Assembly (NCBI GenBank): GCA_017451695.1
Contig: JAFTNW010000010.1
Coordinates: 1-64,000 of the forward strand
Length of the DNA: 64,000 nucleotides
Source of the DNA: Bacteroidaceae bacterium
GTDB taxonomy: Bacteria > Bacteroidota > Bacteroidia > Bacteroidales > Bacteroidaceae
Direction of reading: 5' to 3'
Below the pieces are notes generated by a model. It saw only the letters and a list, made by a program, of their open reading frames with translations, had not been told where the DNA came from and did not search any database. Position 1 is the first letter of the stretch; each line of letters opens with the position of its first letter. This document shows positions 8,186-33,910 of this stretch, piece by piece. The position numbers were made by a program, and so were the translations under genes.

Positions 8186-8230
8186 ATCAACGAAAAAAGG
8201 AGCACCCACGGTGCTCCTTTTTTCGTTGAT
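8186..8230. terminator. Bidirectional terminator between DUF3108 gene and thrA
   Basis: A perfect 21-bp inverted repeat with a 3-base loop (CAC). The arm has a GC-rich top (GGAGCACC) and an A6/T6 tract in the lower stem, so a U-run is produced on both strands. It sits 21 bases after the DUF3108 stop and 15 bases beyond the thrA stop, as expected for convergent genes. Confidence 0.93.
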
Positions 8231-30585: not shown

Positions 30586-31686
30586 CTACTTTAAGAAAAA
30601 CTCCTTCACGTCGCCCCTGTTGTGCTGGTTGAACAGCCTGCGGGTGTCATATATGAATTCTTGCATCTTGCTCTTGCCTGTGGGGCTCTTCACAAGGCTT
30701 GTGTCGGCCGGCAGTATGGTGAAATTGCCGTATCCGTCTCTTTCGGGGCGTGCAACCCAGGTGAGCGCATATTCGAGCGAGCTGAGCCAGCAGATGTCAT
30801 AAATCTTCAACAGCCCCAAGCGCACAAGAAGGCCGCCATCCCTGCCACGGGCATACATGCCCGATACAAGGTTGCCTGTGGAGTATATAACCGCGTTGCG
30901 CTTGGCTGTGAGCGAGTCGCTGCGCATCTCAATTGGCTGCACTACATGAGGGTGGTTGCCCACTATGTGGTCCACTCCCTCTTCCAACAGCCATGCTGCA
31001 AGCTCCTTAATATATTTTGGCGGGGTGCTCACATACTCGTCGCCCCAATGCATGCAGGCAATAATGGCATCGGGCTTCATCTCCTTTGCGCGTGCAATAT
31101 CCTTTTTTATCTGCTCCTTGTCAATGAAATTCACAACAAGCGGCGGCGGTACAGGTATTCCGTTGGTGCCATAGGTGTAGTTCAGCAGGGCTATTCTTGC
31201 CCCCTTTTTCTCTATTATAAGCGGATAACGGCTCTTGCGGTCGGTGCTGTCGCGGTAAACACCGCAGTGTACCACGCCCAGCGAATCCATCATCTGCATG
31301 GTGCGTAATGCTCCTTGCTTGCCGCGGTCGAGGCAGTGGTTATTGGCAAAAAGGAGCACGTCGAATCCGGCTCCTTTGGCGGCATACAAGAAACTGTCGG
31401 GTGCGCAGAATGAGGGGTAACCTCCAAATCTTCTGCTGCCTATTGTCGTTTCAAGGTTGGCTATTGCAATGTCGGCACGGCCCACCTCCTCCCTTATATG
31501 ATTGTAGCAGGGCGAGTAGCTGTATAATCCATCGCCTGCTTGTGCGGCATTCAGCTGGCTTTGGTGCTGCATTAGGTCCCCTGCAAAGAGAATATTTATG
31601 CGCGACAGGGGGTTACAGATGTTTTGCGCCGTAGTTGCAACTACGGCGCAAAACATAAGCAGAGCTATTTTTATTCTTAAATTCAA
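30586..31686 (-). CDS. CapA-family (PGA_cap) metallophosphatase-like protein
   Basis: A 366-residue exported protein of the CapA/poly-gamma-glutamate-synthesis family, which has a calcineurin-like fold. Family motifs are ILFAGDLMQHQSQLNAA near 33, ADIAIANLETTI near 72, LLFANNHCLDRGKQG near 112, and HWGDEYVSTPP followed by DHIVGNHPHVVQPIEM near 215-255. The signal peptide is MNLRIKIALLMFCAVVATTA; residues 11-23 of it are encoded by a perfect 38-bp palindrome (see repeat). No other capsule genes are near. It follows folD by 4 bases and is last in a four-gene run. Confidence 0.88.
   Translation of the reverse strand: MNLRIKIALLMFCAVVATTAQNICNPLSRINILFAGDLMQHQSQLNAAQAGDGLYSYSPCYNHIREEVGRADIAIANLETTIGSRRFGGYPSFCAPDSFLYAAKGAGFDVLLFANNHCLDRGKQGALRTMQMMDSLGVVHCGVYRDSTDRKSRYPLIIEKKGARIALLNYTYGTNGIPVPPPLVVNFIDKEQIKKDIARAKEMKPDAIIACMHWGDEYVSTPPKYIKELAAWLLEEGVDHIVGNHPHVVQPIEMRSDSLTAKRNAVIYSTGNLVSGMYARGRDGGLLVRLGLLKIYDICWLSSLEYALTWVARPERDGYGNFTILPADTSLVKSPTGKSKMQEFIYDTRRLFNQHNRGDVKEFFLK
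31619..31656. repeat. Perfect 38-bp palindrome inside capA
   Basis: The half ATGTTTTGCGCCGTAGTTG is followed with no spacer by its exact reverse complement. Both strands therefore encode the same peptide (MFCAVVATTAQN); on the minus strand this is in frame as residues 11-23 of CapA. The capA mRNA could fold a 19-bp hairpin about 30 bases after the start codon. Confidence 0.97.
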
Positions 31687-31690
31687 CGGG

Positions 31691-32569
31691 TTAATATATT
31701 TGATGTGTGGCCGCCAGCAGTGTGTTCTTCATGAGCGATACAATGGTCATGGGGCCTACACCGCCCGGGACAGGTGTTATGAAGGAGCATTTTGGTGCCA
31801 CGTTCTCAAAATCCACATCGCCACACAGGCGGAATCCCTGCTTGCGGGTGGGGTCGGGCACGCGGGTGGTGCCCACATCGATTATCACTGCACCCTCTTT
31901 CACCATATCGGCCTTTACAAAATGGGGTTGCCCTAATGCGGCAATAATGATATCGGCGTTGCGGCACTCCGCGGCAATGTTCTGTGTGTGGCTGTGGCAC
32001 ACTGTAACGGTGGCATCGCCCGGTGTCTGTTTCTGCATCATCAGGCTCGCCATGGGCTTGCCCACTATGTTGCTGCGCCCCAGCACCACGCATTTTTTCC
32101 CTTTTGTATCAATATCGTATCGGCGCAACAGCTCCATTATTCCGTTGGGCGTTGCCGAAAGGAAACATGGCAACCCAATAGCCAAACGGCCTGCATTCAC
32201 AGGGTGGAATCCATCGACATCCTTGCGATAATCAATGGCCTCTGTAATCTTCTGCTCGTCGATGTGGCGTGGCAGGGGCAGCTGTACTATGAAACCATCA
32301 ACATCGCTGTCCTTGTTCAGTTCATCGACCTTGGCAAGCAGTTCCTCCTCGGTAACATCATCCTCGTAGCGTATGAGTGTCGATGTAAATCCGCACTCCT
32401 CGCAAGCACGTACCTTGTTGGCAACGTATGTTTCGCTGCCGCCGTCGTGCCCCACAAGGATTGCTGCCAAGTGGGGGCGTTTGCCTCCGTGTGCAATAAT
32501 GTTTTCCACCTCCAAGGCTATCTCTTTTTTTATGGTAGCCGCAATGGCTTTGCCGTCAATGAGTTGCAT
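31691..32569 (-). CDS. folD: Methylenetetrahydrofolate dehydrogenase / cyclohydrolase
   Basis: Interconverts methylene-, methenyl- and formyl-tetrahydrofolate for purine and methionine synthesis. The 292-residue protein has [14 protein letters not shown] with the catalytic Lys near 53, the substrate loop [14 protein letters not shown] near 92, the [16 protein letters not shown] block near 117, and NADP-binding [19 protein letters not shown] near 161. The final [20 protein letters not shown] is diagnostic. It is 18 bases downstream of ffh on the same strand. Confidence 0.96.
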
Positions 32570-32587: not shown

Positions 32588-33910
32588 TTACATTTTGAAA
32601 CGCGACATCAGGTTGCCCATCTTGTTGCCGGCAACATTCTTCATCACCTTGCGTATCTGCTCAAACTGCTTCATCAGGCGGTTTACCTCCTGAATGTTTG
32701 TGCCGCTACCGCGGGCTATGCGTTCGCGGCGCGATTGGTTGATGATATCGGGGTTGGCACGCTCTTTGGGTGTCATGGAACGTATTATGGCCTCCACGCT
32801 CTTGAATGCGTTGTCATCGATATCAAGGTCTTTTATGGCTTTACCCACACCGGGAATCATTGCCATAAGGTCCTTGATGTTACCCATCTTCTTTATCTGC
32901 TCAATCTGTTTAAGGAAATCGTTGAAATCGAATTGGTTGCGTGCCATCTTGCGTTGCAACTTCTTCGCCTCCTCTTCGTCGAACTGCTCCTGTGCGCGCT
33001 CCACAAGCGAAACCACGTCGCCCATGCCCAGGATGCGATCGGCCATACGGTTGGGATGGAATTGGTCTATCGCCTCCATCTTCTCACCGGTACCTATGAA
33101 CTTGATGGGTTTATCCACAACGGTGCGTATGGACAGCGCTGCACCACCGCGTGTATCGCCGTCGAGTTTGGTGAGGATTACACCGGTGAAGTCCAAACGG
33201 TCGTTGAACTCCTTGGCTGTGTTCACTGCATCCTGTCCGGTCATTGAGTCCACCACAAAGAGTGTCTCGGTGGGGTTCACAGCCTCTTTTATGGCTGCAA
33301 TCTCCTGCATCATAGCCTCGTCTATTGCCAGGCGGCCGGCGGTATCTATTATCACAAGGTTGTAGCCCTTGTGCTTGGCCTCTTTTATGGCGTTCAAGGC
33401 TATCTCCACCGGGTTTTTGTTCTCTGGCTCGCTATATACAGGTACCTCAATCTGCTCGCCGAGAACCTTCAGCTGGTCAATGGCGGCGGGGCGGTAAACG
33501 TCGCAGGCAACCAATAGGGGAGAGCGGTTCTTCTTTTTCTTCAAGAAGTTTGCGAGCTTGGATGAGAATGTGGTTTTACCCGAACCCTGCAAACCCGACA
33601 TAAGGATAACCGCTGGATGTCCCTCGTAGTTTATATCGGCTGTCTGTCCACCCATGAGCGTGGTGAGCTCGTCGTGCACAATCTTTATCATCAATTGGCT
33701 GGGGCGGATAGATGTGAGCACATTCTGTCCTATGGCCTTGTTCTTCACCGTGTCGGTAAAGCTTTTTGCCACTTTGTAGTTTACGTCGGCATCGAGCAGT
33801 GCTTTGCGCACATCTTTCAGTGTCTCGGCCACGTTCACCTCGGTGATGCGGCCCTCTCCTTTAAGTATCTTAAATGAGCGTTCAAGGCGCTCGCTTAAAT
33901 TTTCAAACAT
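32588..33910 (-). CDS. ffh: Signal recognition particle protein Ffh
   Basis: GTPase of the signal recognition particle that binds signal sequences and 4.5S RNA. The 440-residue protein has an N domain, G1 GLQGSGKTTFSSKLA near 109, IIDTAGRL near 190, TKLDGDTRGGAALS near 249, and a C-terminal methionine-rich M domain with SRRERIARGSGTNIQEVNRLMKQFEQ near 390, which binds RNA. Length is normal. It lies 29 bases after DUF4831 and before folD. Confidence 0.97.
   Translation of the reverse strand: MFENLSERLERSFKILKGEGRITEVNVAETLKDVRKALLDADVNYKVAKSFTDTVKNKAIGQNVLTSIRPSQLMIKIVHDELTTLMGGQTADINYEGHPAVILMSGLQGSGKTTFSSKLANFLKKKKNRSPLLVACDVYRPAAIDQLKVLGEQIEVPVYSEPENKNPVEIALNAIKEAKHKGYNLVIIDTAGRLAIDEAMMQEIAAIKEAVNPTETLFVVDSMTGQDAVNTAKEFNDRLDFTGVILTKLDGDTRGGAALSIRTVVDKPIKFIGTGEKMEAIDQFHPNRMADRILGMGDVVSLVERAQEQFDEEEAKKLQRKMARNQFDFNDFLKQIEQIKKMGNIKDLMAMIPGVGKAIKDLDIDDNAFKSVEAIIRSMTPKERANPDIINQSRRERIARGSGTNIQEVNRLMKQFEQIRKVMKNVAGNKMGNLMSRFKM

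Follow-up and report, generated by a model that had tools for sequence, protein, structure and literature searches.

Palindromic DNA is known in several classes, among them dispersed palindromic repeats such as REP/BIME and the Rickettsia palindromic elements, the latter lying in frame within genes. Closer to the element described here are the protective RNA structures that take part in the programmed (differential) decay of operon mRNA in E. coli, of the malE-malF type (Dar and Sorek 2018; PMC5927463). These E. coli protective hairpins lie in the downstream coding sequence in 17 of 26 cases, without a U-tract, and the protective elements are found on average 107 +/- 56 nt into the gene (PMC5927463). 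We describe a hairpin at a comparable position in capA of a Bacteroidaceae genome, and compare it with that system and with other readings of the same sequence.

In the window (the whole 64-kb stretch of DNA that was analysed), capA occupies 30586..31686 on the minus strand, begins with a TTG start codon (31684-31686) and encodes a 366-aa protein of the PGA_cap family (Pfam PF09587, E 2e-66); in relatives the start codon is TTG, GTG or ATG at the same place. Its signal-peptide codons (residues 1-20; 31627..31686, minus strand) show a basic n-region, a hydrophobic core and an A-Q site, with a putative cleavage before Gln21, and are also supported by a by-eye alignment of relatives. The gene is the last of three codirectional genes: ffh (SRP54; 32588..33910, minus strand) lies upstream of folD (31691..32569, minus strand), both named from sequence, the latter by the FolD motif GGVGPMT, and a gap of 4 nt (31687..31690, minus strand) separates the folD stop from the capA start. 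From this spacing, and from the lack of a promoter-pattern match between the two genes, we infer that folD and capA are cotranscribed. The Bacteroides-type promoter pattern has three matches in the window, a number not above chance, and an internal capA promoter was rejected because none of the three is at capA; an alternative start at the palindrome's internal ATG was rejected because this ATG is not kept in relatives.

As the initial annotation had claimed, codons 11-22 of capA form a perfect 38-bp palindrome (31619..31656, minus strand with respect to the gene), whose arms of 19 nt, ATGTTTTGCGCCGTAGTTG (31619-31637) and CAACTACGGCGCAAAACAT (31638-31656), are 100% complementary with a spacer of 0 nt. 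It is also, as claimed, longer than chance would place inside a gene: an exact 19+19 palindrome is expected anywhere in 64 kb with a frequency of about 64000 x 4^-19, or ~2e-7, and in a list covering the whole window this is the sole long perfect palindrome within a confident gene. The window has one more long perfect inverted repeat (8186-8230, with 21-nt arms and a 3-nt loop), which is intergenic and probably an ordinary terminator-like one. The capA palindrome spans the end of the signal peptide and the putative AQ cleavage site, residues 11-22 belonging to the N-terminus MNLRIKIALLMFCAVVATTA^QN (where ^ marks the inferred cleavage). Both of its strands encode MFCAVVATTAQN, an observation that is correct and that carries no additional evidence, because it follows trivially from perfect symmetry in this register. 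The RNA is predicted to fold into a 17-bp stem (31656-31640 with 31635-31619) closed by a 4-nt loop (31639-31636) and extended by three outer pairs (31661-31659 with 31616-31614), so that the whole predicted hairpin covers 31614..31661 on the minus strand, with an MFE of -30.6 kcal/mol and a z of -4.9 against dinucleotide shuffles; the distance from the folD stop to the stem is 34 nt.

With up to 3 mismatches allowed, the palindrome sequence has one copy in the 2.29-Mb draft genome and is absent from 60 relatives, and a dispersed repeat or mobile palindrome was therefore rejected. A known RNA family was likewise rejected, as a search of Rfam gave nothing above the gathering threshold and the best matches fell far below the gathering scores.

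The gene capA is present in 44 of 44 genomes of the genus, and its signal-peptide region was read cleanly in 39 of them (L083, L087, L089, L090 and L105 failed the motif search). Nearly all of the 39 readable genes fold to a hairpin at the same place with widely differing letters, as exemplified by GATATTCTGCGCCGTTAC-AGCT-GTAACGGCGCAGAATATC in L082, ATATTGCGCCATAGCGGT-AGTT-ACCGCTATGGCGCAATAT in L095 and GGCGTAATGCTTTGTGCA...TGCACAAAGCATTACGCC in L091; the hairpins of L103, L108 and L124 are weak. Measured against recodings with the same protein, drawn from each gene's own codon pool, the hairpin reaches a mean z of -2.9 when the window around it is wide (36 genomes) and of -3.41 when it is tight (39 genomes), with at most 1 in 100 recodings being equally stable for 28 of the 39 tight windows, whereas five control windows in the same genes give z from -0.43 to +0.34. 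(Sense-versus-antisense z-scores were disregarded, because the two strands have equal real energies but unequal nulls.) The hairpin has thus been kept genus-wide at capA beyond what protein and codon use demand, and it is the folded mRNA itself that is preserved. The capA frames of L092 (G017) and L105 (G012) each hold one internal stop (TAA and TGA, respectively), and are possibly pseudogenes or assembly errors.

Compensatory change is extensive. Among 10 centre-aligned capA genomes, double changes, in which both bases differ between two standard pairs, are seen at 16 of the 17 pairs of the stem. An ungapped alignment of 7 capA sequences has 95.8% of its cells paired and double changes at 9 of 17 pairs, and its covariation score of 0.588 compares with 0.275 in shuffles, none of 500 of which reaches that value; sliding one arm by 1-3 columns reduces pairing to 19-49%. 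RNAalifold predicted the same helix unprompted. Across three gene families, interior non-Watson-Crick pairs comprise 85 G-U and 46 A-C (binomial p 0.0008, from related and so not independent sequences), where composition gives an expected G-U:A-C ratio of 0.89; judging by these pairs, the excess of G-U over A-C favours selection on the mRNA strand rather than a DNA process.

The comparison of capA among relatives that the initial annotation had proposed, carried to 39 genomes, returned hairpins of each relative's own sequence with compensatory changes, and an assembly artefact at the palindrome appears very unlikely, because hairpins of their own occur here in dozens of relatives whose genomes were assembled independently. 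Two of the origins that it had offered find no support in these data. A protein-binding DNA site is not supported because the palindrome sequence is different in every relative, structure rather than sequence being conserved among orthologous sites, and a recent inverted duplication is not supported because the hairpin occurs throughout the genus and its sequence has diverged through paired changes. Beyond the genus, long hairpins of unrelated sequence occur in a patchy distribution at the capA start (L054, L061, L050, L125, L048 and L040; that of L054 reads CTCGCCTCCATG-TTTT-CGTGGGGGCGAG), so that the element may predate the genus.

Hairpins of this kind are not confined to capA. A scan for long stems in 1.15 Mb of the same genome, in which genes were called by simple rules and some starts are wrong, found such stems to be scarce in real coding sequence, and three of the best besides that of capA lie in codons for export signals or N-terminal anchors: in the signal-peptide codons of a SPOR-domain gene (L144:12039-12083, on C9) and of a DUF3316 gene (L162:6640-6673, on C27), and in the first codons of lptC (L148:4679-4711). 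A further hairpin of this genome lies in the first codons of a queG-like gene, at +30 (L175:12853-12879). The SPOR hairpin is kept in 28 further genomes with changing sequence (mean z -3.2 genus-wide, in a set that includes one wrong-strand entry, L208), and that of DUF3316 is also kept genus-wide with changing sequence (mean z -2.9; up to 23 perfect pairs, in L246); both are unrelated in sequence to the capA hairpin. The regions in lptC and in the non-exported queG are structured in both genomes compared (the second being G062), so that their conservation rests on two genomes. Separately, a near-perfect palindrome, GTATTGGACACTTTTGCAAAAGTGTCCAATAC, was seen at +72 of a peptidyl-tRNA hydrolase gene (L155:7102-7139).

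All five hairpin genes (capA, SPOR, DUF3316, lptC and queG) are operon-internal, with a start that abuts or overlaps the preceding stop. Upstream of the SPOR gene is tpiA, whose stop overlaps the SPOR ATG (TAATG); upstream of the DUF3316 gene is that of a gyrase/topoisomerase A subunit (gyrA/parC; overlapping ATGA); lptC follows a gene without a certain name, and queG a polysaccharide deacetylase-like gene, these upstream names being read from sequence without a family search. In capA the stem mostly starts 20-40 nt beyond the folD stop, in the SPOR gene 24-32 nt beyond that of tpiA, and in DUF3316 16-34 nt beyond that of the gyrase-like gene. In some relatives the tight junction has been lost and the hairpin kept near the downstream start (capA in L094 and L100; DUF3316 in L231, L232, L238, L240 and L242). 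In L100 and L094 about 0.2-0.7 kb is inserted between folD and capA, where near relatives are tight, and the L100 insert contains a terminator-like repeat. At the genome-wide level, z-scores of orthologs in two species, taken over codons 6-27, correlate at 0.29 for coupled genes (n 107), at 0.12 for the rest and at about 0 in a control window, so that an association of coupling with conserved structure at the 5' end is no more than suggestive (permutation p 0.08). Outside the genus, hairpin strength shows no association with coupling (p 0.69), and coupling as the sole predictor of hairpins is unsupported there.

By analogy with the protective structures of E. coli, we hypothesize that the hairpin at the folD-capA junction is a barrier in mRNA decay, a reading that we prefer and to which we give slightly less than an even chance. 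The palindrome is the DNA counterpart of that mRNA hairpin, which selection maintains at this junction; the downstream part of the transcript would be cut and then degraded from its 3' end, the exonuclease would halt at the hairpin, and the upstream housekeeping message (folD, tpiA, gyrA/parC) would outlast the downstream one. The hairpin would have been placed in the signal-peptide codons of capA, the first tolerant stretch, because there is no intergenic room at the folD stop. In this manner it would probably set the amount made from each gene of the shared transcript, and the recurrence of the same design is supported, throughout the genus for the tpiA-SPOR and gyrase/topoisomerase-DUF3316 junctions and in two genomes for lptC and queG. 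Counting against a decay barrier are the decoupled relatives, the lack of a coupling link outside the genus, the permutation p of 0.08 for the genome-wide link, and a position nearer to the start than in E. coli. The earlier suggestion that a hairpin controls CapA translation is upheld in so far as a structure conserved without its sequence supports an mRNA hairpin controlling expression; the operon context leans slightly towards protection of the upstream folD message rather than control of CapA translation.

The strongest rival, which we consider possible though rather unlikely, is a brake or governor on translation of the downstream gene, in which the stem slows the first rounds of elongation and leaves initiation open, and so limits synthesis of the downstream protein or, in a variant suited to the weak TTG start, focuses it. 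A stem lying about 20-35 nt after the start codon falls just beyond the footprint of the initiating ribosome. The position of the hairpin relative to the downstream start is constant even where the upstream stop has moved away, and other Bacteroidales have strong capA hairpins both with and without coupling, as a brake would allow; against this, all five families are operon-internal with an abutting or overlapping stop and start, whereas genes with their own leaders should need brakes equally. A hairpin retained after decoupling may be simple inheritance, and since inheritance from a coupled ancestor also explains the retention, the decoupled cases do not decide between barrier and brake.

An export-linked pause, in which the hairpin delays ribosomes on the signal-peptide codons and so aids membrane targeting, is improbable. 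Four of the five families do encode exported or membrane-anchored proteins, but the pause would precede the emergence of the signal peptide from the ribosome, and, taken as a class, genes with signal peptides show no more structure than other genes (mean z -0.48 vs -0.46), so that the hairpin was rejected as a general trait of such genes; moreover, queG is not exported and also has the hairpin, and export is therefore not the common factor. We consider it quite improbable that the stem acts between folD and capA as an attenuator or a partial terminator of transcription, although Rho-dependent action is conceivable: a strong stem at an operon junction would suit this role, and a few relatives (for example L119 and L107) do have T-runs behind it, but these encode Phe, most relatives have no such run, and in the window the stem is followed by CATCTGTAACCC and not by the U run of an intrinsic terminator. 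Least credible of all is that template-switching mutation maintains a neutral palindrome without function in a permissive region, a process that would account for the many perfect arms in a signal peptide that tolerates change, but that should act anywhere in genes, where control windows are null and long coding stems rare, and that would predict neither the G-U over A-C asymmetry nor hairpins at the same distance from the start in several unrelated genes.

The capA palindrome is thus an RNA element that is conserved, and whose paired bases covary, within a protein-coding sequence. It is conceivable, and we offer it tentatively, that it exemplifies a general design in Bacteroidota, its mechanism undescribed in this phylum, in which strong hairpins free in sequence would lie in the first codons of operon-internal genes (favouring signal peptides), be kept by compensatory change and set the ratio of adjacent cistrons, whether by halting an exonuclease or by slowing early elongation. 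How Bacteroidota control the ratios of cistrons within an operon has received little study, and the hairpins predict, gene by gene, the sites of RNA 3' ends or of ribosome pauses. Signal-peptide codons can bear a structural message in addition to the coding one, a point of relevance to annotation and to the recoding of codons in gut Bacteroidota.

Among known systems, REP/BIME and the Rickettsia palindromic elements resemble the capA palindrome as palindromic DNA able to act as mRNA structure, the Rickettsia elements also in sitting inside genes, whereas the capA palindrome is single-copy and has a different sequence in each species at homologous codons. Intrinsic (Rho-independent) terminators share the strong stem-loop and differ in their U-run, the capA stem having none and lying within coding sequence. 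The nearest counterpart is programmed decay in E. coli: on features that can be tested in sequence, the capA hairpin is likely to be a new variant of the decay-protection class, not a proven member of it. As in E. coli, a stable structure stands at the boundary of two cistrons (of which cotranscription is presumed here), the stem has no terminator U-tract behind it, either in the window or in the majority of relatives, and the Bacteroidaceae hairpin is conserved in related species. The differences are that this system is in Bacteroidota, that its stems lie at about +20 to +35 instead of 107 +/- 56 nt, in signal-peptide codons, and are longer and near-perfect, and that compensatory changes keep the structure while leaving the sequence free.
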